Assembly: GCA_003022985.1 (NCBI GenBank)
Contig: PXTV01000245.1
Coordinates: forward strand, 1-19,536
Direction: 5' to 3'
DNA from: Bacteroidetes bacterium SW_11_45_7
GTDB lineage: Bacteria; Bacteroidota; Bacteroidia; Chitinophagales; SW-11-45-7
Length of the DNA stretch: 19,536 nucleotides
In this document: positions 4,205-19,536 of the stretch, piece by piece
Position numbering within the stretch: the first letter of the stretch is position 1
Layout: each line of letters starts with the position of its first letter
The notes under the pieces: generated by a model
The model's input: only the letters and a program-made list of their open reading frames with translations
The model's database searches: none
Told to the model about the DNA's origin: nothing
Made by a program: the position numbers and the translations under genes

Positions 4205-5425
4205 TTACTTGCTCAAATACATGGATTTTTCCTTGTACATTTCGCGGAAATAAGGATCGTTCGTATCTACAATAAATCGAATGGACTCCCCGGTTGATTT
4301 CATTTCAGGACCGAGTTCCTTGTTGATGTCGGGGAATTTATCAAACGAGAAGACGGGTTCTTTAATGGCATAACCCTGCATCCTTTGCGGAAATTCAAAA
4401 TCCTTGAGTTTTTTCTCCCCCAGCATCACTTTGGTTGCATAGCTGAGATAAGGCACACCGTAAGCTTTTGCAATAAACGGCATAGTGCGCGAGGCCCTGG
4501 GGTTCGCTTCAATGACATAAACCGTATTGTCTTTAACGGCAAACTGGATGTTGATCAATCCACGTATACCTATGGAAAAGGCCAGTTTTCGGGCATAGTC
4601 ACGCATGGTTTCAATTACCTCCTCAGATAAGCCAAAGGGTGGCAAAACTGAGCTGGAGTCACCAGAATGGATGCCGGCCGGCTCAATGTGCTCCATGATA
4701 CCCATGATCTGAACGTCTTCTCCGTCACATATGGCATCGATCTCGGCCTCCTCAGAGCGATCCAGAAAATGGTCTAAGAGAATGCGATTGCCGGGTAAAT
4801 GCTTTAATAATTTCAGAACGGTTCGTTCCAGGTCCTCATCGTTGATAACGATCCGCATTCGCTGCCCTCCCAAGACATAAGAGGGCCTGACAAGCACCGG
4901 ATAACCAACATCGCGCACTACCTTAAGGGCTTCTTCAGCCGTTTCAGCCACATCGTACTTCGGGTAGGGGATTTTTAGTTCTTTGAGCAGATCCGAAAAG
5001 GCTCCCCGATCCTCAGCTCGATCCATGTTCTCAAAGGAGGTGCCGAAAATTTTGATGCCTTCTTGATAGAGGTTATCGGCCAATTTTAAGGCCGTTTGCC
5101 CACCGAGCTGCACAATGACGCCTTCCGGCTTTTCATGATCGATGATCTCACGGATATGCTCCCAATAAACGGGCTCAAAATACAGTTTGTCGGCAACATC
5201 AAAATCAGTTGAAACAGTCTCGGGGTTGCAATTTACCATTATGGTTTCGTATCCCTGCTCCTTGGCGGCAATCACACCATGCACACAGCAGTAATCGAAC
5301 TCGATGCCCTGACCAATTCTATTAGGCCCGGAGCCGAGGATCAACACTTTTTTGCGATCGGTAACAATGCTTTCGTTTTCCGTCTCGAATGCCGAGCTCC
5401 TTTCGCTTTTGATAGATATCGTCAT
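4205..5425 (-). CDS. carB: Carbamoyl-phosphate synthase large subunit, C-terminal half (split by frameshift)
   Basis: This frame holds the second (carbamate-phosphorylating) half of CarB: Rossmann-like preATP-grasp start KKVLILGSGPNRIGQGIEFD, then the ATP-grasp domain with VLVRPSYVLGGQRMRIV, SGDSSSVLPPFGLS and NIQFAVKDNTVYVIEANPRASRTMPF. It ends shortly after the ATP-grasp domain at KSMYLSK, so it lacks the C-terminal MGS allosteric domain of E. coli CarB; a shorter CarB of this kind is, as I recall, usual in Cytophagia. True homology starts at the Phe codon 5387-5389; the first 12 residues from the ATG at 5425 are out-of-frame translation of the other half. With the N-terminal piece it gives about 913 residues, about 24 short of the roughly 937 expected. 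Confidence 0.88.
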   Translation of the reverse strand: MTISIKSERSSAFETENESIVTDRKKVLILGSGPNRIGQGIEFDYCCVHGVIAAKEQGYETIMVNCNPETVSTDFDVADKLYFEPVYWEHIREIIDHEKPEGVIVQLGGQTALKLADNLYQEGIKIFGTSFENMDRAEDRGAFSDLLKELKIPYPKYDVAETAEEALKVVRDVGYPVLVRPSYVLGGQRMRIVINDEDLERTVLKLLKHLPGNRILLDHFLDRSEEAEIDAICDGEDVQIMGIMEHIEPAGIHSGDSSSVLPPFGLSEEVIETMRDYARKLAFSIGIRGLINIQFAVKDNTVYVIEANPRASRTMPFIAKAYGVPYLSYATKVMLGEKKLKDFEFPQRMQGYAIKEPVFSFDKFPDINKELGPEMKSTGESIRFIVDTNDPYFREMYKEKSMYLSK

Positions 5426-6944
5426 CTTCTACAGAAAGGATATTGGCAAGTTGAGCGTCAGAATACCCTTTTTGCTTAAGGGCAACGATCGTGTCTTTGT
5501 CGAGGTCTTCCAGATTTCGTTTGGCAAGTTCGCTTTCCGTGTTAACCAAGTCCTGAATTTGCCTGAGGAACCAATTATCGATTTGGGTATGGCTCTGTAC
5601 AGTTTGCAGGGGGACTCCGAGTTCCAGTGCGTCTTTAACGCGAAAGGCCCGGTCGTCAGAAGGCCACTTGATGCCATGCAGGTTATCTTCTGTTTTATGC
5701 CACTCCTTTTTATCAGCGCCCAGGCCAATGCGATTGTTTTCAAGCGACTGACAGGCTTTTTGGATGGATTCCCGGAAGCTGCGCCCAATGGCCATTACTT
5801 CGCCAACCGACTTCATCTGGAGGCCAAGGGTTGTGTCTGTTCCGTAGAATTTGTCCAGGTTCCATCTGGGGATTTTGGTTACCACATAGTCAAGCGCTGG
5901 TTCAAAATAGGCCGAAGTGGTTTGCGTGATCTGGTTTTTTAGTTCATCGAGGTTGTAGCCAATAGCCAATTTGGCAGCCACCTTGGCGATAGGGTAGCCG
6001 GTTGCTTTGGAAGCGAGGGCTGAAGAGCGGGAAACGCGCGGATTGATCTCCACGGCAATAATTTCTTCATTTTCCGGATTCAATGCAAACTGGACGTTGC
6101 AGCCCCCTGAAAAGTTGCCTAACGAGCGCATCATATTGATGGCCTTGTTGCGCATGTCCTGGAATGCTGTGTCGGACAAGGTCATTGACGGGGCAATGGT
6201 AATGGAATCACCGGTGTGGACGCCCATTGGATCAAAATTCTCAACAGTACAGATGATGGCCACATTATCGTTATTATCGCGCAACAGTTCCAGCTCGAAT
6301 TCTTTCCAGCCAAGCACAGCTTTGTCGATAATCACCTCGTGCATGGGCGATGCCTTGAGCCCTCGTTCCAATTTTTCCTCGAATTCATCTTTGTGGTGCA
6401 CAAAACTGCCTCCCGAACCACCCAGGGTATAGGATGCCCTTACAACTAACGGATAACCCAATTCCTGGGCAATTTCTTTCCCTTCAAGAATGGAATTTGC
6501 AATGCGCGAAGGGGCCACTTTGACATTGATACCTTCCATTAATTGTCTAAAGGCTTCGCGGTTTTCCGTCCTGTCGATGGCGTTCATATCCACCCCGATC
6601 ATTTTGACGCCATATTTTTGCCATATGCCCAATTCATCGGCCTCTTTGCAAAGGTTGAGGCCCGTCTGGCCACCCATTGTGGGCAACACGGCATCAATGG
6701 GGCGCTCTTCCAGAATTTCGATGAGGGAATCCGTTGTCAATGGCCTTAAATAGACATGGTCGGCCGTGACGTTGTCGGTCATGATCGTGGCCGGGTTGGA
6801 GTTGATCAAGCTCACTTCGATGCCTTCATCACGTAGGGCGCGGGAGGCCTGAGAGCCTGAATAGTCGAATTCGCAAGCCTGACCTATGATAATAGGGCCG
6901 CTACCTATTAACAGAATGGAGCGGATGGCATTGTTTTTCGGCAT
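5322..6944 (-). CDS. carB: Carbamoyl-phosphate synthase large subunit, N-terminal half (split by frameshift)
   Basis: This frame carries the carboxyphosphate-forming half and the oligomerisation region of CarB. Visible are SILLIGSGPIIIGQACEFDY, NSNPATIMTD, PTMGGQTGLN, the ATP-grasp segment VVRASYTLGGSGG, MGVHTGDSITIAP and EINPRVSRSSALASKATG. Then comes the helical region ending near YQKRKELGI (residue 519, codon 5388-5390). After that the frame goes wrong: the last 21 residues are out of frame. The segment normally following, with the conserved VDTCAAEF and the YYYST stretch, is missing from every frame. CarB combines glutamine-derived ammonia, bicarbonate and two ATP to make carbamoyl phosphate for arginine and pyrimidines. 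No carA is in the window. As sequenced, the gene cannot make a full enzyme. Confidence 0.88.
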   Translation of the reverse strand: MPKNNAIRSILLIGSGPIIIGQACEFDYSGSQASRALRDEGIEVSLINSNPATIMTDNVTADHVYLRPLTTDSLIEILEERPIDAVLPTMGGQTGLNLCKEADELGIWQKYGVKMIGVDMNAIDRTENREAFRQLMEGINVKVAPSRIANSILEGKEIAQELGYPLVVRASYTLGGSGGSFVHHKDEFEEKLERGLKASPMHEVIIDKAVLGWKEFELELLRDNNDNVAIICTVENFDPMGVHTGDSITIAPSMTLSDTAFQDMRNKAINMMRSLGNFSGGCNVQFALNPENEEIIAVEINPRVSRSSALASKATGYPIAKVAAKLAIGYNLDELKNQITQTTSAYFEPALDYVVTKIPRWNLDKFYGTDTTLGLQMKSVGEVMAIGRSFRESIQKACQSLENNRIGLGADKKEWHKTEDNLHGIKWPSDDRAFRVKDALELGVPLQTVQSHTQIDNWFLRQIQDLVNTESELAKRNLEDLDKDTIVALKQKGYSDAQLANILSVEDDDIYQKRKELGIRDGKRKHCYRSQKSVDPRLRA

Positions 6945-6953
6945 GAACCAATT

Positions 6954-7013
6954 ATTTGCAGCAGTTAGAAATGAAAATCAACCGTCATTAAAACGGTTCA
7001 AATTGCTGCAAAT
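6954..7013. repeat. Nested inverted repeats in the carB 5' region
   Basis: The outer arms ATTTGCAGCA (6954-6963) and TGCTGCAAAT (7004-7013) are perfect 10-bp complements. Inside them AACCGT (6980-6985) and ACGGTT (6993-6998) form a second stem. The right outer arm overlaps the -7 element of carB, and the left arm is 10 bp from the carB ATG. It could be an operator pair or a leader hairpin; the sequence does not decide. Confidence 0.45.
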
Positions 7014-7016
7014 TTA
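7009..7016 (-). promoter_or_regulatory. Bacteroidota -7 promoter element for carB
   Basis: The minus-strand sequence TAAATTTG matches TAnnTTTG and lies 64 nt upstream of the carB ATG. The -33 position 19-20 nt further upstream is only T-rich, not a good TTTG, so this is a half-supported promoter. Confidence 0.4.
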
Positions 7017-7114
7017 TTGTTTTGAGATGATTAGAAAGGAATACTGCGAATGATCATAGAGGAATAGTGATCCTAAGAGCATATAAATAGAGACTCTTAT
7101 TCGTCTTGAGGAAT

Positions 7115-7134
7115 TGACAAACAGTAATTTGTCA
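7115..7134. repeat. Perfect 7-bp hairpin between carB and a lipoprotein gene
   Basis: TGACAAA-CAGTAA-TTTGTCA. It lies 63 nt past the stop of the 56-aa lipoprotein on the minus strand but has no following T-run in that direction, so it does not look like a standard terminator. It could instead be an operator for carB transcription, since it lies about 100 bp upstream of the carB -7 element. Confidence 0.3.
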
Positions 7135-7197
7135 CTCAGATTTTGAGGTAAAGAAGGATGGGAAAGAATCAGTGAGCTGTTTTTACAATCTTTATTC

Positions 7198-7368
7198 TTA
7201 GCAGTCCCAATTGTCACTTTCTTCAGCCAGATCGAGTTCTTCTTCACAGAACTCCCTTGTATTGTCACTACCAACTTTTTCGCATGTCTTGCACTGTTCA
7301 CAAGAAGAAAGCGATGCAGTAACAGTGAAAAAAACGATTACGCAGAGAAGCTTAATGGTGCGATTCAT
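7198..7368 (-). CDS. Small cysteine-rich lipoprotein, 56 aa
   Basis: The protein starts MNRTIKLLCVIVFFTVTA and has a lipobox SLSSC with the lipidated Cys at residue 23, so it should be an outer- or inner-membrane lipoprotein. The 34-residue mature part is acidic: CEQCKTC, then EFCEEELDLAEESDNWDC ending the protein. This pattern of CxxCxxC, then EFC plus three acidic residues, L, A, W-D-C, is shared with the 64-aa protein at 7734-7928, so the two are paralogs. Function is unknown. Four cysteines besides the lipidated one could form two disulfides or bind a metal. It is well supported despite its length because the paralog conserves the frame from start to stop. Confidence 0.75.
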   Translation of the reverse strand: MNRTIKLLCVIVFFTVTASLSSCEQCKTCEKVGSDNTREFCEEELDLAEESDNWDC

Positions 7369-7477
7369 CTTGATTGATTTTTAATTCATTCATGCAGGCA
7401 GCTTAGCCATAGCAAAGATTATCAAAAAAATTGCGGTAAAAAAATCCTGTTAACCATGAAAGGAAGCTGGACATAAG

Positions 7478-7517
7478 AAAAAAGGGCCTGCTCATACTTT
7501 TGAACAAGCCCTTTTTA
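7478..7517 (-). terminator. Rho-independent terminator, duplicated copy
   Basis: A 16-bp stem (left arm 7479-7494, right arm 7501-7516, two G-U type positions) with a 6-nt loop. T-runs occur on both sides, so it could work bidirectionally. On the minus strand it follows the truncated lipoprotein fragment. Confidence 0.75.
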
Positions 7518-7540
7518 ATCCTGAAATAAAAGCGTGGGAA

Positions 7541-7600
7541 TTATCCGCAATCCCAACCCCTAGCATCTTTGGCATCCTCGAGGTCATCGTCACAGAATTC
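7541..7600 (-). pseudogene. 3' fragment of a Cys-rich lipoprotein gene
   Basis: It encodes EFCDDDLEDAKDARGWDCG and a stop, identical in DNA to the end of the intact gene at 7734-7928. Upstream of the GAATTC at 7595-7600 the gene sequence stops abruptly and is replaced by a repeat-element end. No signal peptide or lipobox remains. A 23-codon frame from an ATG inside the repeat is technically open but not credible as a gene. Confidence 0.8.
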
Positions 7601-7634
7601 ACCCACAACCATTGGAAGCAGTAGCCGTGTTATA
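7601..7634 (-). repeat. Terminal remnant of the dispersed hairpin repeat (copy 1)
   Basis: The 34 bp between the two copies of the 157-bp repeat match one end of the elements at 11982-12246 and 19362-19536. Against the latter there are about three mismatches over 33 bp (shared core on the minus strand: ATAACACGGCTACTG then TTCC and TTGTGGGT). It sits exactly at the breakpoint of the duplicated gene. Confidence 0.7.
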
Positions 7635-7636
7635 CG

Positions 7637-7793
7637 ATCCTGTTAATCATGAAGGGAAGCAGGACGTAAGAAAAAAGGGCCTGCTCATACTTTTGAACAA
7701 GCCCTTTTTAATCATGAAATAAAAGCGTGGGAATTATCCGCAATCCCAACCCCTAGCATCTTTGGCATCCTCGAGGTCATCGTCACAGAATTC
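7637..7793. repeat. 157-bp direct repeat, copy 2
   Basis: The second copy of the segment at 7444-7600, offset by 193 bp. Here the coding part is continuous with the complete lipoprotein gene, so this copy is likely the original. Confidence 0.95.
7671..7710 (-). terminator. Rho-independent terminator of the 64-aa lipoprotein gene
   Basis: The same 16-bp stem and 6-nt loop as the copy at 7478-7517. It lies 24 nt after the stop codon on the minus strand and is followed by a run of T. Confidence 0.8.
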
Positions 7794-7928
7794 TTCAGTT
7801 TTACCAGTTTTGTCACCTGTTGCAGGGTTTATTTCATCACATTCTTCACAATCTTCACAGGATGCCATGGTGCCTGCAAGGCCACACATAACTGTTAATA
7901 CGAGGAAAAATCTTTTTGTAGCGTTCAT
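7734..7928 (-). CDS. Small cysteine-rich lipoprotein, 64 aa
   Basis: Paralog of the 56-aa lipoprotein at 7198-7368. The signal peptide spans MNATKRFFLVLTVMCGLAGTMAS with the lipidated Cys at residue 24. The mature protein reads CEDCEEC, then a short Thr/Gly/Lys linker (about 10 residues longer than in the paralog), then EFCDDDLEDAKDARGWDCG. It is very acidic and has four non-lipidated cysteines. Function is unknown and I do not recall a named family. It has a well-formed promoter at 7996-8026, a 27-bp tandem duplication in its leader and a strong terminator. Its last 20 codons and downstream flank are duplicated next to it. Confidence 0.8.
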   Translation of the reverse strand: MNATKRFFLVLTVMCGLAGTMASCEDCEECDEINPATGDKTGKTEEFCDDDLEDAKDARGWDCG

Positions 7929-7933
7929 ACAAG

Positions 7934-7987
7934 AAAATTTTAGGGTTTAAAAATAATGGAAAAATTTTAGGGTTTAAAAATAATGGA
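7934..7987. repeat. Perfect tandem duplication of 27 bp in the lipoprotein leader
   Basis: Units 7934-7960 and 7961-7987 are identical (each starts AAAATTTTAGGGTTTAAAAA and ends TAATGGA). They lie between the promoter and the start codon of the 64-aa lipoprotein, so they lengthen its 5' UTR, which is extremely AT-rich. Confidence 0.95.
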
Positions 7988-7995
7988 ATTCACCA

Positions 7996-8026
7996 CAAAT
8001 ATAAAAAGGTTTTGTAGATTGACAAA
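7996..8026 (-). promoter_or_regulatory. Complete Bacteroidota promoter of the 64-aa lipoprotein
   Basis: On the minus strand, TTTG (8023-8026), a 19-nt spacer, then TATATTTG (7996-8003). Both elements and the spacing fit the Bacteroidota sigma-ABfr consensus TTTG-N19/21-TAnnTTTG. It is the best promoter in the window. The leader would be about 60 nt and contain the 27-bp tandem repeat. Confidence 0.75.
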
Positions 8027-8037
8027 TTCGAGCGTAA

Positions 8038-8045
8038 TAAATTTG
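8038..8045 (+). promoter_or_regulatory. Candidate -7 element for the GT2 gene
   Basis: TAAATTTG matches TAnnTTTG. A TTTG at 8011-8014 is 23 nt upstream, slightly too far. A second -7 match, TACATTTG, lies at 8102-8109 without a -33. Either could drive the glycosyltransferase gene at 8204. Confidence 0.3.
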
Positions 8046-8203
8046 AAAAACTATATTAGAGCGGACTCGATTTCACGTATCAACAGGACTTTGCGTAGTG
8101 TTACATTTGTAGCTATTGCCCGGTATAGACGTACCATTTGTGTTTGTTTGCCTCTCCATAATTTTTGATACAAAAAGCTTTGTTGAGTTGCTCCCATCAA
8201 ATC

Positions 8204-9130
8204 ATGATGATCATCTATTTTGCCTCTTTTTTATTAACACTTTTTTATGTTGGTTTAATCGCTTACTACGGCTATGGGTGGTATAGAACACGGCCTTTTC
8301 AGCCTTTTACGGAACGGGCTAATTTCTCAAAAACAGTTAGTGTTCTCATTCCTGTACGCAATGAAGAAGCGTCAATTCAGGCGACAATTCACGATATTCT
8401 CAAACAGGAATATCTAAATGATGGGATGGAAGTGATTGTTGTTGATGACTTTTCAAGTGATAGGACCCGCCAATATCTCGAGCAAATACCCGATAAGCGG
8501 CTAAGGGTGTTTGCTATGCGCGATTTTTTTAACGAGAACCAACTAGCGTCACCAAAAAAAGAAGCTCTTGCTTTGGCAGTTAGCAAAGCTAAAGGCGAGC
8601 TCATTGTGACAACTGACGGGGACTGCCGCATGGGGCCTCATTGGTTGTCAACCATAGTACGTTTCTTCGAACACTATCAGCCAAAATTGATAGCAGGTCC
8701 CGTGGTTTATCAACGCAGTGATTCTTTTCTCAATGCCTTTCAATCGCTTGATTTGTTAAGTATGATGGGCATCACTTGCGCCTCTGTAGCCAATGGATTG
8801 CCTGTTATGTGCAATGGCGCCAACCTGGCGTTTGAGAAGAGTGCATATGATAAAGTGGGTGGCTACAGCAATAATACATATACAGCCACTGGTGATGATG
8901 TATTTCTTATGTTAAAAGTTCAAAATAAATATCCTGGTGGCGTGAAGTTTTTAAAGGCCCGTGAAGCTGTTGTGACCACTGAACCGCAGCCAACATATTG
9001 GGCGTTATTTCAACAGCGCAAGCGATGGGGCGTTGTATTTGTTTCACGTAGCCATTATTATCGCAGTTTTACTCGGTCTGTTCGTTCATTCTTCCATGTT
9101 ACTTGTTGGGGTTGGGGCATTATTGCTTAA
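8204..9130 (+). CDS. Membrane-associated family 2 glycosyltransferase, main part (frameshifted)
   Basis: A GT-A fold glycosyltransferase with an N-terminal membrane helix (about residues 2-22). The catalytic domain has VSVLIPVRNEE (45-55), the nucleotide-binding DD at 81-82, DGD at 138-140 (DxD metal site), GDD at 230-232 with the likely catalytic Asp, and QQRKRW at 270-275, the QxxRW signature of membrane-bound polymerase-like GT2 enzymes. Homology ends at Trp275 (codon 9026-9028); the remaining 33 residues are out of frame. The normal C-terminal membrane segments continue in the +1 frame from about 9030. I prefer the ATG at 8204 to the TTG at 8165. Substrate is unknown; it probably works on a lipid carrier or surface glycan. 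Confidence 0.8.
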   Translation: MMIIYFASFLLTLFYVGLIAYYGYGWYRTRPFQPFTERANFSKTVSVLIPVRNEEASIQATIHDILKQEYLNDGMEVIVVDDFSSDRTRQYLEQIPDKRLRVFAMRDFFNENQLASPKKEALALAVSKAKGELIVTTDGDCRMGPHWLSTIVRFFEHYQPKLIAGPVVYQRSDSFLNAFQSLDLLSMMGITCASVANGLPVMCNGANLAFEKSAYDKVGGYSNNTYTATGDDVFLMLKVQNKYPGGVKFLKAREAVVTTEPQPTYWALFQQRKRWGVVFVSRSHYYRSFTRSVRSFFHVTCWGWGIIA

Positions 9131-9299
9131 GTTGATTGTGGACTTGATTTTCCTTTATCCCGTTTGTGCTTATTTCAATCAGAAATCTTTACTTTGGCTC
9201 TTTCTCCCTGTACAAATTGCTCATGTGGCCTATGTAGTAATGATGGGGATAGCTTCAAATATCAGAGGGTTCCAATGGAAAGGAAGACGATTGAAATAA
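9033..9299 (+). pseudogene. C-terminal membrane part of the same GT2, displaced frame
   Basis: Coding from about 9030 in a different frame from the catalytic part: ALYLFHVAIIIAVLLGLF, then two or three more membrane helices, ending FQWKGRRLK, a typical ending of this GT2 group. No good start codon exists (TTG at 9033 only), so it is not an independent gene. About 15-17 residues usually found between QRKRW and the first of these helices are missing at the junction 9026-9032 (TGGGGCG). The stop is 36 bp before the permease gene, suggesting a shared transcript. Confidence 0.75.
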
Positions 9300-9335
9300 T
9301 CCGGATTTTGCCAATTGTAAGGAGCTTATTAGCTA

Positions 9336-10577
9336 ATGGCAGCAACTGATAAAGCCACTTCAGCTCAATCTGTTTCTCCGGCTAAACGGTCACGGGATCG
9401 CCTCTTACGGAACAAACCTGCTGTGTTTGGCATGGTTACCATCGTTCTTGCCATTGTGGTAGCCATTTTGGGTTATTTGATCACCCCGGATGCCACGCCA
9501 AATGCTAACGATCAAATTCTCCAGATTACGAATAAGGCGCCCGGTTTTACCACTACGTTGCTGAAAGTTCGCAAAAACCGTTCGATTGAATTCAGGAATG
9601 TGTTCAACAAGATGGTTTACGGGCAGCAGCATCCTTATGATCTATTACCGATTGGCGATTATCGTTTTACCGATAGTTCCATTATTGTAGATCAGTATAC
9701 CAGAAAAGGGGGTACCTTAAAAACAAAAGAATTCGGGCTCGCTGATGTGGCTAACCCTTTATCGATTGAAGAGGGGCAGGGAAGTGAATTAAAAAAAGGT
9801 GCCATCCGGTTTACCACGTTTAATAATGAACAAAAGCAAATTGCTGTGGCGAAGCTTCAACAGCAAATAGAACAGCAACATATCGAGAACCGAACGTTTT
9901 ATCTGGGTACTGATAAATTTGGCCGGGATATTTTGAGCCGTTTGATGATCGGTGTGCGAATATCGCTGTCAGTTGGGTTGGTGGCTGTAGTGATCTCACT
10001 GGTTATTGGCATTACAATTGGCGCCATGGCGGGTTATTTTAGAGGTTTTCTCGATGATGTGCTTATGTGGCTGATCAATGTGATATGGTCCATCCCAGCT
10101 TTGTTGCTTGTTTTTGCCATAACACTGGCTCTTGGTAAGGGCTTTTGGCAGATATTTGTGGCCGTGGGGCTCACAATGTGGGTGGAAGTGGCACGTATTA
10201 TAAGAGGGCAATTTCTTAGTTTGCGGGAAATGCAATTTGTTGAGGCGGCTAAGAGTATGGGCTTTTCCCACCTTCGCACCATTAGCCGTCATATATTGCC
10301 TAATGTTATAGGACCGTTATCGGTGATTGCTGCTGCTAATTTTGCCACTGCCATTCTTGTGGAAGCAGGCCTTTCCTTTTTGGGCATTGGTGTTCAACCG
10401 CCTATTCCTTCCTGGGGAGGGATGTTGAATGAAAATTACGGCTACATTATTGGCAATAATCCCTTTCTTGCTATTATCCCCGGCCTTGCCATTATGATGA
10501 TGGTTCTGGCTTTCAATCTTATAGGGAACGGTTTGCGCGATGCTATGGATGTGCGCACAAGTACTGCAGGGAAGTAA
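9336..10577 (+). CDS. ABC transporter permease of the OppC/DppC (peptide/nickel) type
   Basis: A 413-residue inner-membrane permease. The basic N-terminus is followed by a first membrane helix (about 29-50). A long periplasmic insert (about 51-190) then leads into the classic GTDKFGRDILSRLMIG at 191-206, five more helices, and the EAA loop EAAKSMGFSHLRTISRHILP (303-322) that contacts the ATPase. AGLSFLGIGVQPPIPSWG near 355-372 is also diagnostic. The long insert is usual in Bacteroidota members. It should pair with an OppB-type permease, OppDF ATPases and a solute-binding protein, none of which are in this window. Shine-Dalgarno-like AAGGAG lies 11 nt upstream. The gene is intact. Confidence 0.87.
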   Translation: MAATDKATSAQSVSPAKRSRDRLLRNKPAVFGMVTIVLAIVVAILGYLITPDATPNANDQILQITNKAPGFTTTLLKVRKNRSIEFRNVFNKMVYGQQHPYDLLPIGDYRFTDSSIIVDQYTRKGGTLKTKEFGLADVANPLSIEEGQGSELKKGAIRFTTFNNEQKQIAVAKLQQQIEQQHIENRTFYLGTDKFGRDILSRLMIGVRISLSVGLVAVVISLVIGITIGAMAGYFRGFLDDVLMWLINVIWSIPALLLVFAITLALGKGFWQIFVAVGLTMWVEVARIIRGQFLSLREMQFVEAAKSMGFSHLRTISRHILPNVIGPLSVIAAANFATAILVEAGLSFLGIGVQPPIPSWGGMLNENYGYIIGNNPFLAIIPGLAIMMMVLAFNLIGNGLRDAMDVRTSTAGK

Positions 10578-10708
10578 GAAGGGTGATCACACGTTTATTC
10601 ACCGGGTTATTATTTCATCAATTGTAGCAAGATAATTGTATATTTAATGCCTCTGTTATCAGCGTTGAAACGTGTTCTGAATAAAGTTTACAGTTAGAGA
10701 TACTAAGC

Positions 10709-11962
10709 ATGAGCCAGGTCGACCAGAAGAATAATGAACTGGAGGAGAAAGTTAGAACCTATGAACGGCTGCTTTCTGTTAAACAGTTACAGATCAACTC
10801 GCTGCTCGAGGTTTCTCAAGCCATCAATAACAATTTCTCTACCTCTGCTCTCTTTCGTATTTACGAGTTCATTTTAAGAGCTCAACTCGGAATTCAAAAA
10901 ATCCTGGTTTTCCTGGAAAATGAAGGCTGGGTCTGTGTATGTCAATCAGGCACCGAGAATGACTACGAGGATGTCTCCGTCAAGGACGATCTGCTACCTT
11001 ATGCTAAAATTACCAAGCTTCCTGAAGCCGATAATGATAAGTTAAGCGAGTTCGAGGTTCTCATTCCTGTATATCATAAGGAGGAGCCGCTTGCTTATGT
11101 ACTGCTTGGCAATACCCAGGAAGATGAGCATACCTCAATGGAGGAAAAGATCAAATTCATTCAAACGATAACCAACATCATCATTGTTGCCAATGAGAAT
11201 AAGAAGCTGTTCCGTAAACAGGTTAACAATGAGGTTGTGGAAAAAGAGCTCGAATTGGCTGCAAGAATGCAGTCGATGCTCATTCCTCATGAATTACCAG
11301 AGGATGAGAATGTAGAAATGGATGCTATTTATCTTCCCCATCATAACGTTGGCGGTGATTACTATGATTATATTAAGCTCGATGAGAATCAGTTGGCTTT
11401 TTGTATTGGTGATATATCGGGGAAGGGTATTGCAGCCGCCTTGTTAATGGCCAATTTTCAGGCCAATCTTCGTACGCACATCCACCGGTTTGATAAACTA
11501 AAGAATTTTATTATTACCCTAAATGAGCAGGTTGGCAAGATTACCAAAGGCGAAAAATTCATCACCTTTTTCTTAGGGATTTACAACAGCCAAACACGAA
11601 AATTACATTACGTGAATGCTGGTCACAACCCACCAATGCTCTACAACAACGGTGAGTTAACTGAATTGCACGATGGATGCACGCTGTTGGGCATGTTTGA
11701 TGAGCTTCCTTTTATCAATACCGGTGAAGTTGAGCTTGAATCAAACGCTGTCCTGTTGAATTATACAGACGGGTTAATAGACTTTCAGATAGAGAACGGG
11801 GAGTTTTTTGGCTTAGAACGACTGACCAATTACTTCCGCGAAAACCTTCATTTAAAAATGGAGGTTTTTAACCAACAATTGCTCAATTATATTGAAGATA
11901 AAAAAGCTGCCGATTCCTCAACCAGTGATGATATTACGCTTCTAAGTTGCCGTTTTTATTGA
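10709..11962 (+). CDS. PP2C/SpoIIE-type serine phosphatase (RsbU-like) with N-terminal GAF-like domain
   Basis: 417 residues. The N-terminus has a short coiled coil (5-35) and a GAF-like sensory region (about 36-165), then a helical linker KELELAARMQSMLIP (179-193), the usual lead-in to SpoIIE phosphatases. The PP2C domain has the metal ligands in GGDYYD (215-220) and GDISGKG (234-240), a NAGHNPP motif, and SDDITLL near the C-terminus. Such enzymes dephosphorylate anti-anti-sigma proteins in partner-switching control of stress or surface functions, but no RsbV/RsbW partners are nearby. The sequence is intact. The 131-bp gap upstream holds no clear element. The stop is followed after 19 bp by the hairpin repeat. 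Confidence 0.85.
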   Translation: MSQVDQKNNELEEKVRTYERLLSVKQLQINSLLEVSQAINNNFSTSALFRIYEFILRAQLGIQKILVFLENEGWVCVCQSGTENDYEDVSVKDDLLPYAKITKLPEADNDKLSEFEVLIPVYHKEEPLAYVLLGNTQEDEHTSMEEKIKFIQTITNIIIVANENKKLFRKQVNNEVVEKELELAARMQSMLIPHELPEDENVEMDAIYLPHHNVGGDYYDYIKLDENQLAFCIGDISGKGIAAALLMANFQANLRTHIHRFDKLKNFIITLNEQVGKITKGEKFITFFLGIYNSQTRKLHYVNAGHNPPMLYNNGELTELHDGCTLLGMFDELPFINTGEVELESNAVLLNYTDGLIDFQIENGEFFGLERLTNYFRENLHLKMEVFNQQLLNYIEDKKAADSSTSDDITLLSCRFY

Positions 11963-11981
11963 CACAAGTGAATGGGATTAA

Positions 11982-12246
11982 AGAATAGCACGGTTAGAGG
12001 TTCCTGCCAATAATGGGGCTAAAGCCACTGTTGTATACGCTTTTGAACCCTTGGCCGGCAACTTTCCAAAAGTTACCGGAAAGGAGGGCGGTACATGTGG
12101 AATCCATAAAGCGGAAAACTTTTGGAAAGTTATTCAATATTCATTGCCGTTGGCTTCAGCCAACGGCTAACCATCAATTAACGATAGCGGCTTTAGCCGC
12201 ATTGTTGTACCCACAACCATTAGAACCCGTAGCCATTTTATTCTAT
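11982..12246. repeat. Hairpin-rich dispersed repeat, complete copy (copy 2)
   Basis: A 265-bp non-coding element between two convergent genes. Its ends are imperfect inverted repeats (AGAATAGCACGG at left; reverse complement of the right end AGAATAAAATGG). Inside are perfect inverted 15-mers AACTTTCCAAAAGTT (12060-12074) and its complement (12117-12131), a 22-nt hairpin GCCGTTGGCT-TC-AGCCAACGGC (12146-12167), and GCGGCT-TT-AGCCGC (12187-12200), with a decayed counterpart GGCTAAAGCC at 12017-12026. It behaves like a MITE or REP-type element; no transposase is nearby and no target-site duplication is obvious. Confidence 0.8.
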
Positions 12247-12250
12247 GAGA

Positions 12251-12628
12251 TTATAAACCACCACCAAAATTTTCTGCAAGTTCAATTACATATCCATTCG
12301 GATCTTGAATATAGACGGATGCCGATTTTTCCCATTCATACTCATTGACAATTGATACGTTCCTTTCCTTACATGCTTGCTGAACATCCTTGAAGTTGTG
12401 GATGTGTAAACCAAAATGGTTAAAGCCGGGTCCTTCTTTTGTCAATTGAAGCTCTTCCACCTCATACAAGCAAAGTTTAACTGCATCATTCCCAATGATT
12501 TTGGATTTGGCTTTGGGTTGATCTTTTAGAATGGCAAACCCGAACAAGTCGCAATAAAATTGGACCGACTCGTCAAGGTTTTTGACGTCTAAATTCATGT
12601 GATCGATGCCACTGGTTTGAAGTTTCAT
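12251..12628 (-). CDS. VOC superfamily (glyoxalase/bleomycin resistance-type) protein
   Basis: 125 residues forming two beta-alpha-beta-beta-beta modules: HMNLDVKNLDESVQFYCDLFGF (first module, possible metal ligand His10) and GFNHFGLHIHNFKDVQQACKERN through DPNGYVIELAEN (second, His71 and Glu116). The likely metal-binding pattern is retained. The superfamily includes lyases, dioxygenases, isomerases and antibiotic-binding proteins, and the substrate cannot be inferred. It is the last gene of the minus-strand polysaccharide block, 27 bp after the ligase gene. The stop at 12251-12253 is only 4 bp from the end of the repeat element, so the repeat borders the gene but does not disrupt it. Confidence 0.83.
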   Translation of the reverse strand: MKLQTSGIDHMNLDVKNLDESVQFYCDLFGFAILKDQPKAKSKIIGNDAVKLCLYEVEELQLTKEGPGFNHFGLHIHNFKDVQQACKERNVSIVNEYEWEKSASVYIQDPNGYVIELAENFGGGL

Positions 12629-12655
12629 ATCTGTTTTAGTATTTGTATGATAAGT

Positions 12656-14104
12656 TCAATTGCCAACCTTACCCTTTCGGTGTTTGATATCCAGATTAAC
12701 TAACAATGCAATATTCAAAAAGAATAGTGTGCCCGTTTTGACCGCTTCTACAAGATCGCTCAACATGAGATTGACATAAAGGACCAATAATGAAAGAATA
12801 GCAGCTGTAGCTAACAGGCGATCCTGACGTTCGTAGATGTACTTGAACAATCGCTGGCAGTAAAAAAACAGCGAGATAGTAAAACCGAGAAAGATCAAAA
12901 ACCCTATTACCCCCTGTTCCACAAGCATCAATAAGAAGTAATTATGAACCGTTGATCGTTCTTCGTTGTCAGATAAATAAGTTCTGAAATTCAGAAGCGT
13001 GTATTCCTTATAATAAGGGTAAAAGTTACCGGGTCCGTAACCGAGCAACGTGTTTTGATCCATCATATTGAAGGCGGCAAGCCAACGGTAAAATCGCTCC
13101 ATACTGGAGGCATCCTTTAATTGATAAGTGGCAACTATATGTTTTGTCAAATTTTGATGGGCTATTGTGTGCCTGTAGCTGGGGGCAAGGTCCATAAAAT
13201 TATTCTTGTAGTTCAAATAGCCAAAAATCCCCAGTAAGATGATGAAACTTGCAATAAGGGCATGGGGCAGCCAGCCCCTGTTTAGAAGAAAATAGGCAAT
13301 GCCGGCCACAAGTAACGCCAACCAACATGCGCGTGTATAGGAGAAATAAATGGCAACCAGAAAAATGACGCGACTTATAAGAAGAAAGCGCCTTTTGAAT
13401 GTGCCTTTTTCGTACCAGTAAGCAGCTATCCACAGGAAGGGAAATACCATTGTCAGGTGAGCTGCGTAATTCACGTGATTCCTGAAATAAGGCATCACGG
13501 CATCATTCACTTCATCAAAAGCGAATCCCCGGAGAGCTTGGCGAACTAATATGAGCAGGGTTATACAAAAGAGAGGAACAAATAAAACCCAGAAAGCTGA
13601 CCGGAACGTTTTGCTGTCTTTAAGAATGAGACCTGCCAGGAAAACAAAAACAACAATGTACCAGGTCTTGGCCAGAAAGAATTTGAGCGAAACCATCATG
13701 TCCTCCGAGGTGAGGGCTGTAATAAAGGTCCAGAAGTAATGGAGGCCGAGGATCAAAATGATGGGGTGGACGAGGAATCGTGATTTGATAAGCCCGGGGT
13801 TGGCGAGCACATAAAGAAAGAAAACGAACATGAGCCCGATCATGAGTGGCTCTGTTGGTAAATCTGTGGCAAGGTTACTGCCTTTGAAATAATATTCGAT
13901 AGAAAGGGGCAGAAAAAACAACAGAAGGTAAAAGACCTTCTGAAAATCAACCAATGAAAAATAGCCCAAAACAACAATAAAGGGAAGGAGGGCGAGCAAA
14001 TATTGCTCCAGATAAGCGCCCCCTAACAAGCTCGCAAGAGTAATAAGCCCGAAGCCTGTGTAAAAGACAAATTGATCAGTGCCTATAGCTCCTTTATTGG
14101 GCAT
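12656..14104 (-). CDS. O-antigen ligase/polymerase family membrane protein (Wzy_C domain)
   Basis: A polytopic inner-membrane protein of about 482 residues with roughly a dozen hydrophobic segments. The long periplasmic loop (SYRHTIAHQNLTKH to NFRTYLSDNEERST) is followed by STVHNYFLLMLVEQGVIG, the signature region of the O-antigen ligase/Wzy family. Arg-containing FSYTRACWLALLV is a second family motif. It would polymerise repeat units or ligate glycan to its acceptor at the periplasmic face. I choose the ATG at 14104 because it overlaps the wzz stop by the common ATG...TAA arrangement; the ATG at 14155 would add 17 polar residues deep within wzz. Its neighbours (wzz, wzx) support a surface polysaccharide role. 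Confidence 0.82.
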   Translation of the reverse strand: MPNKGAIGTDQFVFYTGFGLITLASLLGGAYLEQYLLALLPFIVVLGYFSLVDFQKVFYLLLFFLPLSIEYYFKGSNLATDLPTEPLMIGLMFVFFLYVLANPGLIKSRFLVHPIILILGLHYFWTFITALTSEDMMVSLKFFLAKTWYIVVFVFLAGLILKDSKTFRSAFWVLFVPLFCITLLILVRQALRGFAFDEVNDAVMPYFRNHVNYAAHLTMVFPFLWIAAYWYEKGTFKRRFLLISRVIFLVAIYFSYTRACWLALLVAGIAYFLLNRGWLPHALIASFIILLGIFGYLNYKNNFMDLAPSYRHTIAHQNLTKHIVATYQLKDASSMERFYRWLAAFNMMDQNTLLGYGPGNFYPYYKEYTLLNFRTYLSDNEERSTVHNYFLLMLVEQGVIGFLIFLGFTISLFFYCQRLFKYIYERQDRLLATAAILSLLVLYVNLMLSDLVEAVKTGTLFFLNIALLVNLDIKHRKGKVGN

Positions 14105-15056
14105 CACGGAGTGCTTGTCTAAGGTCTTTGAATTTTTCTGCCATAATGGCTCCAATAACAGCCAGGACGGTGGCTATAAGAGTAGTAGCTACACATATCA
14201 ACCAGCGAACCGGTTTTGCCTTTTTGTTGGCCGGATAAGCTTTTTCGAGGATATAAAGAGAGGAAACATCCTGTTCTGCTGAAACCTCGTATTGTTCGTA
14301 CAATGTAGAAAATCTTGTGAGTTCTTCAAGGGCATTTTCATGCCTCGATTTCAATACCTCGAATTGTGTAAGTGCTGTGGGCGAGGATGCCTCGTAATTT
14401 GCATCTTCTTCTGAACCACCGGCAACTTTTTCTATATTGTATTTCGCCTTGAGCTCCGATAAACTATCTGTAAGCTTATTAACTTCTTTTTGTTTCTCTC
14501 TGTATTTCTTTTCAAATGAAGAAACAATTCCGCTTTTCATATTTTGAACAGTCTCTAAGTTTCGTTGATCTATCACCCTGACAATAGTGTTAACCATTTG
14601 GGCAGCACGCTCGGGATCTGTATCTAAAATCTCGATTGAAATAGCACCGAGTTTTGTTTTCTTGGCGGTAAAGTTGCTATTGAACTGCCTTTTGGCGTAG
14701 AATTTCCATTGCTCATTAGTGGTATCGATATTGTAGACGTCATAGAGCTCAAAACGATTGATCATAAAATCAACTAATGGCTCTGACTTGGCAATTGTAA
14801 GTACTCTTTCAATATCACGTTCATCGCCAAAATAACTGGGTAGCATATCACCCGTGGCTTCACTGAATAACATCTGGCGGTCGGTAATGGATAAATTGGT
14901 GGGAAAAAAGACGGATTTGGACTTGTAGTGTTCATCCATGACGAATGAGGTGACAACACCCCCCAAAGCTGCAACGGCAATTAATACAATAATGGGAATA
15001 CGCCATTTTAGTACAATTTTTATCAGCTCGATGAGATTAAACGGTTTGTTATTCAT
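14094..15056 (-). CDS. Wzz/chain-length determinant family protein
   Basis: 320 residues with the Wzz layout: a membrane helix near the N-terminus (IPIIVLIAVAALGGVVTSFV, about 20-39), then a periplasmic alpha/beta domain with KSKSVFFPTNLSITDRQ and LGAISIEILDTDPERAAQMVN. After a coiled coil (about 170-265), LEKAYPANKKAKPVRW leads into the second helix (about 284-304). No kinase domain follows, so it is a stand-alone regulator of glycan chain length or an export co-factor. It has its own -7 element 21 nt upstream and a terminator separates it from wzx. The gene overlaps the ligase gene by 11 bp, implying translational coupling. Confidence 0.85.
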   Translation of the reverse strand: MNNKPFNLIELIKIVLKWRIPIIVLIAVAALGGVVTSFVMDEHYKSKSVFFPTNLSITDRQMLFSEATGDMLPSYFGDERDIERVLTIAKSEPLVDFMINRFELYDVYNIDTTNEQWKFYAKRQFNSNFTAKKTKLGAISIEILDTDPERAAQMVNTIVRVIDQRNLETVQNMKSGIVSSFEKKYREKQKEVNKLTDSLSELKAKYNIEKVAGGSEEDANYEASSPTALTQFEVLKSRHENALEELTRFSTLYEQYEVSAEQDVSSLYILEKAYPANKKAKPVRWLICVATTLIATVLAVIGAIMAEKFKDLRQALRDAQ

Positions 15057-15076
15057 TTTTACGCGCGGATTTTTTG

Positions 15077-15084
15077 CAAAAGTA
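15077..15084 (-). promoter_or_regulatory. Bacteroidota -7 promoter element for wzz
   Basis: The minus-strand TACTTTTG exactly fits TAnnTTTG, 20 nt upstream of the start at 15056. No clear -33. It lies directly after the terminator of the preceding gene. Confidence 0.5.
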
Positions 15085-15085
15085 G

Positions 15086-15119
15086 AAAAATCATAGAGGC
15101 GCTTAATTCACCTCTATCA
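15086..15119 (-). terminator. Rho-independent terminator after the wzx-like gene
   Basis: On the minus strand, ATAGAGGTG and CGCCTCTAT form a 9-bp stem (one G-U pair; core arms 15111-15117 and 15093-15099) with a 7-nt loop, followed by GATTTTT. It lies 32 nt beyond the wzx stop codon. Confidence 0.7.
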
Positions 15120-15150
15120 GGTGGTCTGATTGCTCAATTATCGTTGTTCG

Positions 15151-15654
15151 TCAACCGCTTCTTTCTTCGCCATCTTCCTGTTTTGAGCGGATGATTGTCA
15201 ATACGCTTTGCCAATTGAGCAATTTGATACTGGTTGCCATAGCAAGTGACAAAACAATACAAACGATAAAGTTGATGAACCATTGCTCAAAGAGCCCTTT
15301 GCTTATATAAGCTATTGCTACAACTGCTGCAAAATAAGTGACTAAAAGAGCGATGAGGCGATAATTAATGGCCAGTTGGAAAATGCGGTAAGCGGCAATT
15401 ATATGCAGAAGTGTAACAATCCCTTGCGTGATAAATGTTGAAATGGTAGCTCCAAAAGCCTGGTAATATTGGATAAGAATAAGATTAAGAACAATATTAA
15501 GCATGACACCGGCAAGCGCTATAATGTTTAGGTGCTTCATCTTTTCAGCTGCTGTAAGAAGAGTGCCGAATATATATATGGAGGCGATGAAGATAAATGA
15601 GACTATGAGGAGCGCAAAGATGGCGCCCCAGTAGCTTGTCGCGGCAACGTATAA
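15151..15654 (-). pseudogene. Wzx-like flippase, C-terminal part in displaced frame
   Basis: This frame continues the flippase from TTA TAC GTT at 15654 (LYVAATSYWGAIFALLIVSF) through FGTLLTAAEKMKHLNIIALAGVMLNIVLNLILI and several more membrane helices to EDGEERSG. The only ATG in it is at 15540, in mid-helix of the family alignment, so the piece is not an independent gene. Residues that normally connect the preceding segment (SYRFVFVLAG) to LLY-ATSYWG, about 20 of them, are missing at the junction 15648-15654. Confidence 0.75.
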
Positions 15655-16469
15655 CCGGCAAGGACAAAGACGAAGCGATAGCTCGTTTCCAGGAGGTCAA
15701 CGATCTTTTCCCGCTTTTGAAGCATCCTGGCAAAGATTGGTAATAACAGGGAGGCGAATAGAAAACCGAACATATTCACCGCATCGAGCAAACGATAAGC
15801 AGCAGCGTAGATACCTGCCTCTGTTGAGCCATTCTCAGGTAAAAGGCGCTCTATCATAACGCTGTCAATGCGGTTATAAAGAGCCATCAGGATCCCCAAT
15901 AAGGCAAATGGATAAGAGCGCCTCAGCAGTGTCTTAAGAAATTCCTTATCGATGGATAAGTCAATTTCATCCATTTTTCTTACAACGAGTAAGAACGAAA
16001 TAAGAGCAGTGAGCAGAAGAGCAATTGTATGAGCATAAACAAAGCGCTCAATGGTTAAGTATTCCACAGGCACTATGCCCAGTAACATTGAACCGATCAT
16101 CAGGATGAGGATAAGACGGTCAGTCACCGATAAAACAGCATCGAGCCGGAAATCATGAAGCCCGGATATATTGGAGCGTAAATACAGAACAAGGGATCGC
16201 AGGATTTGATTGACAACCATGAACTTTAGCAGGAACATTTGGTAGTTATTGAACGCCACCCTCCAGCCAATACCGAAGGTTATGATCGCATAAACCCCGG
16301 CCAGAGCTGCTTTTAGCACTAATATGTTGCTTAGGTATTTGTTGAGAAGGTGCGGTTCCCGGGCAATGCGGATGTTGTTAAAATTGTTGATCGGGTCAGT
16401 TTGCAGGGGCTGAGGCTCAGGGACAAAAACCCTGAAAAGCATTCTCAACAGCAAGGTATTCAAGATCAT
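15603..16469 (-). CDS. Wzx-like polysaccharide flippase (MATE/PST superfamily), N-terminal part, broken
   Basis: A lipid-linked oligosaccharide flippase of the polysaccharide transporter family. Good homology runs from INNFNNIRIAREPHLLNKYLSN through LYLRSNISGLHDFRLDAVLSVTDR, then YPFALLGILMALYNRIDSVMIERLLP and GIYAAAYRLLDAVNMFGFLFASLLLPIFARML, and stops after SYRFVFVLAGY; the last 15 residues are out of frame. The beginning is also abnormal. The family has about 50-60 residues, including a YGFYFSLF-like helix and a D-GI motif, before NFNN, but here only MILNTLLLRMLFRVFVPEPQPL precedes LQTDPINNFNN. It would move glycan units across the inner membrane for polymerisation by the adjacent ligase/polymerase. 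As sequenced it is non-functional. Confidence 0.78.
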   Translation of the reverse strand: MILNTLLLRMLFRVFVPEPQPLQTDPINNFNNIRIAREPHLLNKYLSNILVLKAALAGVYAIITFGIGWRVAFNNYQMFLLKFMVVNQILRSLVLYLRSNISGLHDFRLDAVLSVTDRLILILMIGSMLLGIVPVEYLTIERFVYAHTIALLLTALISFLLVVRKMDEIDLSIDKEFLKTLLRRSYPFALLGILMALYNRIDSVMIERLLPENGSTEAGIYAAAYRLLDAVNMFGFLFASLLLPIFARMLQKREKIVDLLETSYRFVFVLAGYTLPRQATGAPSLRSS

Positions 16470-16553
16470 CTGTCAATAGATTTTCTTGAACTCTCCTGTG
16501 AAATGCCTAATATTGTAGTTCTTGTGTTCAGCAAAAAAAAGAATTCCTGATCT

Positions 16554-17723
16554 ATGAAAATCGCAGTTAACACACGTTTTCTGCTTCCTGATCATTTGGA
16601 AGGAATTGGCTGGTTTACCTGCGAGACATTCCGTCAATTAACCCGTCAACATCCTGAGCACGAATTTCACTTTTTTTTCGATCGCTCCTATAGCGATACT
16701 TATCTCTTTTCGGACAACATCACACCTCATGTGCTTCAGCCACCTGCCAGACACCCCGTTTTGTGGTATTGGTGGTTCGAGTGGAGCGTAGTGCGCAAAT
16801 TGAAGCAGCTTCAACCTGACTTGTTCATCTCTCCGGATGGCTTCCTTAGTTTAAACACCCAAATCCCAACACTTCTGGTTATTCATGATCTTGCCTTTGA
16901 GCATTTTCCAAGCCATATCGGCAAATTAGCGCGGCAATATTACAGGCGCTATACCCCTCTTTTCACGCAAAAGGCAGCACGAATAGCTACCGTTTCTGAA
17001 TATTCCAAACAGGATATTGTGAGCCAGTACAGAGTAGCACCGGATAAGATCGATGTTGTTTATAATGGCTCAAACGGATACTACCGCGCCCTTTCTAAGG
17101 AGCAACAGCGCAATATCAGGCAACATTTAACAAATGGCAAAGAGTACTTCCTCTTTGCAGGAGCTCTTCAACCCCGTAAAAATGTGGCCAATCTGCTGCG
17201 GGCTTTTGATCAGTTTAAGCAAAAGACCGGCTCAACTACGCAACTGATTCTTGTGGGAAGAAAAGCATGGCACTATGATGGCATCATGGAGGCCTACAAT
17301 GAAATGAACGATAAAGCCGATGTGCAGTTTTTAGGGCACAAGAATGCTGTGGATCTTTCTGGTATTATGGGTGCAGCCAAATCTCTCGTATATGTTTCCC
17401 GGTTTGAGGGGTTTGGTATTCCGTTGTTGGAGGCCATGCAAGCTGAAGTGCCTGTCATTACCTCTAATACCAGTTCTATGCCGGAAATAGCAGGCGAGGC
17501 GGCCTGGTTAACAGACCCTTACTCGGTGGAAAGTATTGCTGATGCCATGATGAAGATTGATAATGATAAGAAACTGAGGCAGCAACTTGTTGATGCGGGA
17601 AAGAATCAACGCCAAAAGTTTTCCTGGCAGCAAACGGCCAATGAGCTCTGGGAAAGTGTTGAAAAGACTGTTTACAAAAGGGAAAAAAGCGGTCTTCATT
17701 TTGCAGGGGAAGCCAGCTCTTGA
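16554..17723 (+). CDS. Family 4 glycosyltransferase (GT-B fold)
   Basis: 389 residues with two Rossmann-like domains. The N-terminal acceptor domain starts MKIAVNTRFLLP with the glycine-rich EGIGWFT (16-22). The C-terminal donor domain has FAGALQPRKN (201-210), LILVGRKAW and the E-x7-E signature, Glu285 and Glu293, in RFEGFGIPLLEA, which binds the nucleotide sugar. It is a retaining cytoplasmic enzyme that adds a sugar, often mannose- or glucose-like, to a glycan; the sugar is not deducible. It is divergent from the flippase and 84 bp away, so it probably belongs to the same polysaccharide locus. It is intact. The start at 16554 has no strong Shine-Dalgarno, which is normal for the phylum. 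Confidence 0.86.
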   Translation: MKIAVNTRFLLPDHLEGIGWFTCETFRQLTRQHPEHEFHFFFDRSYSDTYLFSDNITPHVLQPPARHPVLWYWWFEWSVVRKLKQLQPDLFISPDGFLSLNTQIPTLLVIHDLAFEHFPSHIGKLARQYYRRYTPLFTQKAARIATVSEYSKQDIVSQYRVAPDKIDVVYNGSNGYYRALSKEQQRNIRQHLTNGKEYFLFAGALQPRKNVANLLRAFDQFKQKTGSTTQLILVGRKAWHYDGIMEAYNEMNDKADVQFLGHKNAVDLSGIMGAAKSLVYVSRFEGFGIPLLEAMQAEVPVITSNTSSMPEIAGEAAWLTDPYSVESIADAMMKIDNDKKLRQQLVDAGKNQRQKFSWQQTANELWESVEKTVYKREKSGLHFAGEASS

Positions 17724-17798
17724 ATTTTCATATATGAATCCCGCCTCAGCTTTTTCAAACAACTTCACGTCTAATCACCACCTAATAATGGTCAACCC

Positions 17799-19361
17799 AT
17801 GAAAATTGCCCTTGCTCAACTGAATTATCACATAGGCCATTTTGAGCAAAATATTCAGAAGATCAAGAAGGCCATTCGGGGGGCAAAAGACAAGGGGGCA
17901 GATCTTGTGGTTTTTGCTGAACTAGCAGTCTCCGGCTATCCGCCACGAGATTTTCTTGAGTTTGGTGACTTTGTGGAACGGTGCCGGCAGTCGATCCATG
18001 AGTTAGCTCAGGAAGCTGATGACATTGGAGTGATTGTAGGATCACCCAGCTTGAATAATAAACAGAGAGGCAAGCCCCTTTACAATTCTGCCTATTTCCT
18101 GTATGATGGGCAAGTCCAAAAGATTGTCAATAAGACCCTTCTTCCCAACTACAACATTTTTGACGAATACCGCTATTTTGAGCCCAACCGGGAATTCATT
18201 ACTGTTCAGCTTCAAGGCAAAATTATAGCCCTTACCATCTGCGAGGACCTTTGGGACGAAACCCCTGCCGGCCCCAACAGTAGTCAAGCTATGTACAGCA
18301 GGACGCCTATGGATATGTTGATTAGTGACAGTCCTGATATGATCATCAATATATCGGCTTCTCCATTTGATTATAATCACTCCGATGCCCGCTATGAAGT
18401 GCTGAAGCGCAACTCGGAGCAATACAATCTTCCTATTTTTTATGTGAACCATATCGGTGCTCAAACCGAGTTGATCTTCGATGGCGGCTCAATGGTTTTT
18501 GATGCTGAAGGTGAGCTTTCCGGCATGCTGCCCTATTTTGAAGAGGCGCTTCAGGTTTTCGATCTCGAGGAAATCACCCACTCAAGGAAAGCCCCAGGCC
18601 AGGAACCAACAAAAAGAATGCATGCCCCTCAAATACCTCTTAGTACAGTTCAAGCACTCGGGCCTGACAATGTCCGCGTTTTAATGATGCCTTCTGAGTT
18701 TTCCTCGGAGCATTTCGTGACGGATTCCGATCTGTTAGTGCAAAATCTCGGCTGTCAACAGGATACCATAGCCATTCACGATATTTATCACAGTTTTTTA
18801 AACACATTGCATCCCTTCATTCAAGACACAGCCTTTGATGTGACCGAGGAAAATATTCAATCCCGTATTAGAGGAACATTGTTAATGGCTTTCTCCAACA
18901 AGTTTGGCAACATTCTGCTTAACACATCCAATAAAAGTGAAGCAGCAGTTGGCTATGGCACCCTTTATGGCGACATGGCCGGTGGGCTCTCAATATTAGG
19001 TGATGTTTATAAAACCCAGGTATATGAGCTGGCCAGGTATATCAATCGGAATTGTGAGGTTATTCCTCAAAACATTATAGATAAACCGCCTTCTGCTGAA
19101 TTACGGCCGGATCAAAAAGATAGTGACTCCCTGCCCGCTTATCGTATATTGGATGATTTACTTTATCAATACATCGAGATGCGAAAAGGCCCTGACGATT
19201 TGAAAGAAACAGGGTTCGATGCTTCCCTGGTGGATCGTGTTTTGAAAATGGTGAACAGCAGTGAGCACAAACGTTACCAAACACCACCCATCCTTCGCGT
19301 GTCAACCAAAGCTTTCGGTATGGGAAGAAGGATGCCCATTGTGGCCAGGTATTTAACTTGA
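17799..19361 (+). CDS. nadE: Glutamine-dependent NAD+ synthetase lacking its ATP-binding loop
   Basis: The N-terminal glutaminase (nitrilase) domain (1-260) is complete with catalytic triad Glu41 (FAELAVSGYPPRD), Lys112 (NKTLLPNYNIFDEYRYF) and Cys148 (LTICEDLWDE). The synthetase domain then begins abruptly at VQALGPDNVRVLMMPSEFSSEH (from residue 284) and continues normally through TEENIQSRIRG, LLNTSNKSEAAVGYGTLYGD and the C-terminus. Missing between APQIP (280) and VQALGPDN is about 40 residues, including the LGLSGGIDSA PP-loop that binds ATP pyrophosphate. The enzyme amidates deamido-NAD with glutamine as donor; without the loop adenylation should fail. The deletion leaves the frame open. 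The length is 520 against roughly 545-560 expected. A hairpin repeat starts directly at the stop codon. Confidence 0.87.
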   Translation: MKIALAQLNYHIGHFEQNIQKIKKAIRGAKDKGADLVVFAELAVSGYPPRDFLEFGDFVERCRQSIHELAQEADDIGVIVGSPSLNNKQRGKPLYNSAYFLYDGQVQKIVNKTLLPNYNIFDEYRYFEPNREFITVQLQGKIIALTICEDLWDETPAGPNSSQAMYSRTPMDMLISDSPDMIINISASPFDYNHSDARYEVLKRNSEQYNLPIFYVNHIGAQTELIFDGGSMVFDAEGELSGMLPYFEEALQVFDLEEITHSRKAPGQEPTKRMHAPQIPLSTVQALGPDNVRVLMMPSEFSSEHFVTDSDLLVQNLGCQQDTIAIHDIYHSFLNTLHPFIQDTAFDVTEENIQSRIRGTLLMAFSNKFGNILLNTSNKSEAAVGYGTLYGDMAGGLSILGDVYKTQVYELARYINRNCEVIPQNIIDKPPSAELRPDQKDSDSLPAYRILDDLLYQYIEMRKGPDDLKETGFDASLVDRVLKMVNSSEHKRYQTPPILRVSTKAFGMGRRMPIVARYLT

Positions 19362-19536
19362 TAGAATAACACGGCTACTGGTTCCAATAATTGTGGGTAC
19401 AAAAATGCGGCTAAAGCCGCTATCATGAATTGATTGGTACCCGTTGGCTGAAGCCAACGGCAATGATTTTTGAATAACTTTCCAAAAGTTTTCCGCTTTA
19501 TGGATTCCACATGTACCGCCCTCTTTTCCGGTAACT
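19362..19536. repeat. Hairpin-rich dispersed repeat, copy 3, cut by window end
   Basis: An inverted copy of 12071-12246: the last 66 nt (19471-19536) differ from the complement of 12071-12136 at one position. It starts TAGAATAACACGG directly at the nadE stop codon and contains the GCGGCTAAAGCCGC hairpin (19407-19420), CCGTTGGCT-GA-AGCCAACGG (19441-19460) and AACTTTCCAAAAGTT (19476-19490). The other half lies outside the window. Confidence 0.85.

Follow-up and report, generated by a model that had tools for sequence, protein, structure and literature searches.

The stretch analysed here, called the window below, is a whole contig of 19,536 nucleotides (PXTV01000245.1) from the draft genome of Bacteroidetes bacterium SW_11_45_7, an assembly of 1,918,207 bases in 252 contigs with a completeness of 57.78% and a contamination of 0.65%. 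The window contains no N. A first-pass annotation had proposed that four of its genes (carB, a GT2 gene, a wzx-like flippase gene and nadE) each lack a sharply bounded internal block, and comparison with homologues bears this out, with about 25, 17, 16 and 36 codons missing, respectively. The further claim that three of the four are frameshifted and that nadE stays in frame is confirmed by the list of open reading frames (ORFs) and by alignments with close relatives. The remaining genes had been described as complete, in agreement with the Pfam matches obtained where they were scanned. At 449-2236 (plus strand), a 595-aa protein was assigned as a serine hydrolase belonging to family PF00144 (Beta-lactamase). 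An Rfam scan of the window returned nothing, and ARAGORN found no tRNA in it.

Homologues were sought in 29 relatives, which in every case belong to the same order but to other families; figures for NadE, GT2 and Wzx homologues refer to the best 120 matches listed. The first-pass annotation had pointed to close relatives as a check on the blocks, and protein searches found three very close full-length proteins from other assemblies that retain them: P0122 (NadE, 556 aa), P0241 (Wzx, 489 aa) and P0002 (GT2, 381 aa, listed at 90%). The same longest contig size, 99,279 bp, is given for the P0122 and P0241 clusters.

The carB gene lies on the minus strand and is spread over two frames, an N-terminal piece at 5322-6944 and a second piece at 4205-5425. 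The ORF list and the homologue comparison place the break within 5380..5400, with the join at about 5385-5391, where the frame changes. Against a homologue from the near-complete relative G019, 22 residues fall between the two pieces and about 74 nt are missing (median 90, two queries); the block is kept in all 11 relatives fetched. The GT2 gene, on the plus strand, likewise occupies two frames (8165-9130 and 9033-9299). Relative to P0002 it lacks 17 codons, or about 50 nt judging by the frames, at a frameshifting break within 9029..9036 (join at about 9032/9033), and the block is present in all 118 homologues that align across it (119 examined among the matches listed).

In nadE the break is in frame (18639..18646, plus strand, join at 18641-18645 by comparison with P0122). 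The gene is a single frame of 520 aa from which a net 36 codons of P0122 are missing, the SGGxDS motif among them; a whole-length tblastn alignment of P0122 shows 36 gap positions and 15 mismatches. This motif was found in 119 of 119 NadE homologues among the matches listed. It lies in an open frame at all 80 loci compared, with the full pattern in 70; in nine others the motif sits in a frame of 549-573 aa, and one short contig (L092) has a 345-aa frame.

The wzx-like gene, on the minus strand, is broken twice when read against P0241, with which it shares 98.8% identity over 246 residues and 96.4% over 167. Its ORFs lie in two frames (15151-15540 and 15603-16469), and the internal break, within 15650..15660 (about 15654), removes 16 codons (about 47 nt as judged from the reading frames) with a resulting frameshift. 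This block is present in 119 of 119 homologues aligned across it (120 examined among the matches listed). The first-pass annotation had also listed the region 16390-16450, and a fifth break does lie there, within 16388..16395 on the same strand (about 16391): the first 59-60 codons of P0241 are missing from the N-terminus, which is present in all 101 homologues aligned across it, again with 120 examined among the matches listed. The loss at 16391 exceeds the typical break size. On the opposite (plus) strand, a short ORF without a Pfam match lies at 16350-16550, immediately upstream of the GT4 gene, and may be the end of a gene truncated at the join. The 16391 join may therefore mark a wider gap, or the contigs on its two sides may not be true neighbours.

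At the level of nucleotide sequence, then, the blocks are truly absent from the window and present in the relatives examined. Programmed bypass, splicing or editing was rejected, because the block is missing in the DNA itself and very close relatives have it. The first-pass annotation had leaned towards either an artefact or the presence of second copies. The second part of this alternative found no support: searches of the genome itself, at 57.78% completeness, returned no second copy of carB, of nadE (two queries), of wzx or of the window's GT2 gene, and such copies may sit in the part of the genome that is missing. The first part is strongly supported by breaks found across the sampled part of the assembly, by many N-run gaps and by the intact genes of very close relatives.

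The first-pass annotation had also suggested looking for more such gaps in the rest of the genome. We surveyed the window and 80 further contigs (81 of the 252 contigs, 668,450 nt), using as controls 80 other loci and 60 stretches (1.2 Mb) of G019. The 80 loci and G019 together supplied the 1,881 ORF entries used as queries; some G019 ORFs may have been entered twice. Under a strict rule (each piece at least 60 bits, less than 60 nt between the pieces, and a changed frame), 18 breaks were found among the 168 gene places (157,523 nt) of the sampled contigs that had a homologue, and 14 of them were free of N. Applied to the controls, the same rule found no break, either in the 80 loci (650 gene places, 733 kb) or in G019 (104 places, 101 kb). 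A looser rule gave 34 break places in the sampled contigs, all of them frame-changing, nine with N nearby and 25 without; nadE is not among them because its break is in frame. In the controls the looser rule gave 21 break places in the 80 loci, six with a frame change, and none in G019. The 80 loci were chosen around nadE, so this gene is over-represented among them. Break sizes are rough, being read from where local matches stop. Pseudogene decay would be expected to bring small slips and stops along with larger deletions; of the 18 strict breaks, 17 imply a change of at least 19 nt, and only the remaining one, at L193 (5 nt), is small enough that it may be such a slip. The earliest survey, with fewer references, gave few matches, and an initial count (17 breaks in 102 genes against 1 in 216) is superseded by the figures above.

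Housekeeping genes are among those broken. NCBIfam models applied to the reference proteins named leucyl-tRNA synthetase (leuS), GMP synthase (guaA) and PBP2 (pbp2). In its own genome leuS is spread over four matched stretches of a single contig, of which the first two share a frame and the last is preceded by an N run of 98; a separate search found rpoB in two frames on one contig, free of N. Ordinary pseudogene decay would have been expected to spare such genes, yet leuS, guaA, pbp2, rpoB, carB and nadE are all broken.

That the deletions are real, through a lineage-wide process or early genome decay, is highly improbable. The blocks are missing from the sequence as given, and residue changes in 908 conserved columns of nadE, GT2 and wzx point the same way, with nine specific to the window against three specific to the sister, numbers too small to weigh. 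A preliminary count gave 9 stops within matches over 30,859 aligned residues in the genome and 12 over 89,258 in the controls; these could reflect decay, sequence errors or match ends overrunning a break. Against real deletions, the cell would have broken copies of nadE, carB, leuS, guaA and rpoB alike, gaps of similar size that do carry N occur among the N-free ones, and the 520-aa NadE and the window's GT2 are each listed from one contig, that of the window. The unusual short-deletion process that the first-pass annotation had offered for this lineage is unsupported. If the deletions were real, the joint absence of intact genes for NadE, CarB, LeuRS, RpoB and GMP synthase would be remarkable. 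A genuine genome-wide removal of gene blocks of about 30-150 nt in a lineage of uncultured Bacteroidota, housekeeping genes included, with compensation by unseen second copies or at the level of RNA or protein, is extremely unlikely.

The N runs in the assembly give clues to how the breaks arose. Fifty runs were found in 33 of the 81 contigs, with lengths of 2-263 nt (2, 4, 7, 7, 8, 12 ... 263), compared with five in the 80 other loci and none in the 60 G019 stretches. Fifty runs of such variable length, down to 2 bases, indicate that the assembly was scaffolded, and the lengths seem to fit gap estimates cut off at zero. Short N runs inside genes, at points where homologous residues are missing, do not seem to be masked sequence. 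One N run of 81 (L196:6722-6802) has a left flank that resembles, by eye, the beginning of a tRNA gene. For the nine N-marked breaks, the homology gap minus the N length was 67, -19, 202, 58, -52, -19, 64, 32 and 37 nt, with a mean of about +41 nt. Given errors from -52 to +202 nt, a true gap of 30-150 nt would frequently receive an estimate of zero or below. Gap size showed no difference between N-free and N-marked breaks (Mann-Whitney p = 0.49), in a comparison of low power with 19 and 9 values, respectively, picked by hand. Of the 25 N-free rows, nine were omitted from it by hand (L175 3232, L180, L187, L193, L195 4593, L198 578, L198 650, L202 400 and the G019-based GT2 row); the window contributed three extra values, obtained by comparison with P0002, P0241 and P0122.

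Taken together, the missing gene pieces are very probably an ordinary assembly artefact, in which draft contigs were joined without marking the unsequenced gap between them. The window would be a single scaffold from a draft genome of an uncultured member of the Bacteroidota, assembled from short reads, whose contigs would have ended at short uncovered stretches and been put in order by read pairs. A positive gap estimate would then have been written out as N, and contigs with an estimate of zero or less would have been abutted without N, dropping some 30-150 nt of real sequence or leaving a short overlap duplicated. We infer the read-pair scaffolding, the low coverage and the zero-or-less rule; the breaks throughout the sampled assembly (the same kind recurring in housekeeping genes across 81 of the 252 contigs), the variable N runs that stand as scaffold gaps of estimated length, the intact close relatives and the absence of strand-inverted splits are direct observations.

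This explanation has partial parallels in known assemblers. According to the Velvet paper (PMC2793427), neighbouring contigs without a connecting path are joined by as many N as the distance estimate, and many of these buffers are very short; its Pebble module resembles the present case in the variable, often very short N buffers and in the placement of contigs side by side by read pairs. The description of Meraculous (PMC3158087) reports negative gap estimates, a second point of likeness. Unlike the buffers described there and for Velvet, the breaks in this genome are mostly free of N (25 of 34 under the looser rule, 14 of 18 under the strict one). Among the papers listed in a literature search, none was seen that dealt with unmarked scaffold gaps in a metagenome bin.

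Two other routes to false joins were weighed. A gap closer or graph step within the assembler may have accepted a short chance overlap of contig tips; the product would still be an artefact, and we consider this route improbable. It gains from the window codons beside two of the joins, which differ from P0122 or P0241, and from a short shared stretch that the first-pass annotation's reasoning would allow at the carB join. Codon reasoning suggests, however, that no more than a few bases are shared at the GT2 join, and the occurrence of N runs as short as 2 nt shows that gap estimates were entered as N. Chimeras formed before sequencing by multiple displacement amplification (MDA) of a single-cell genome are very unlikely. 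The completeness of 57.78% fits a single-cell assembly, and MDA chimeras, like the breaks considered here, are false joins in genomes of uncultured cells; in one study (PMC1855051), 85% of them were inverted and direct joins of less than 10 kb made up 11 of 475. Mostly inverted joins would therefore be expected, yet no query was split between opposite strands within 3 kb. That no gene was found split across strands counts against amplification chimeras.

If contigs were abutted without N, some overlaps might have been left unmerged. A 27-nt stretch at 7934..7987 is perfectly doubled head to tail and is possibly such an overlap. Within a gene at L195 4591, 26 nt are doubled in tandem with one mismatch, as an unmerged overlap would look. 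Near-perfect tandem copies numbered eight in the genome (mostly simple repeats), two in G019 and nine in the other loci; the number in the genome is only modestly raised and we place no weight on it.

The practical consequence concerns how such drafts are read. A draft rated 0.65% contaminated can hold one break per approximately 5 kb of homology-covered coding sequence (34 places in 157.5 kb, most of them free of N). With breaks this frequent and mostly N-free, gene losses, frameshifts and shortened proteins read from this draft are unsafe.

Several repeats were also noted in the window. A 157-nt repeat (7444-7600 and 7637-7793, 97% identity, spacing 193) may reflect either another false join or genuine duplication. 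The 36-nt spacer between its copies resembles part of a dispersed repeat of about 180 nt (repeats D2, I2). Near it, on the minus strand at 7734-7928, lies a small acidic, cysteine-containing ORF of 64 aa with a signal-like start and no Pfam match, and an ORF near 7190-7370 seems, by eye, to be similar. The dispersed repeat itself occurs at 12071-12259 (plus strand) and 19348-19536 (minus strand), so that the window ends inside one copy. It has 35 matches in its own genome at E up to 1e-5 and contains two short, strong hairpins (DNA fold z = -3.1).
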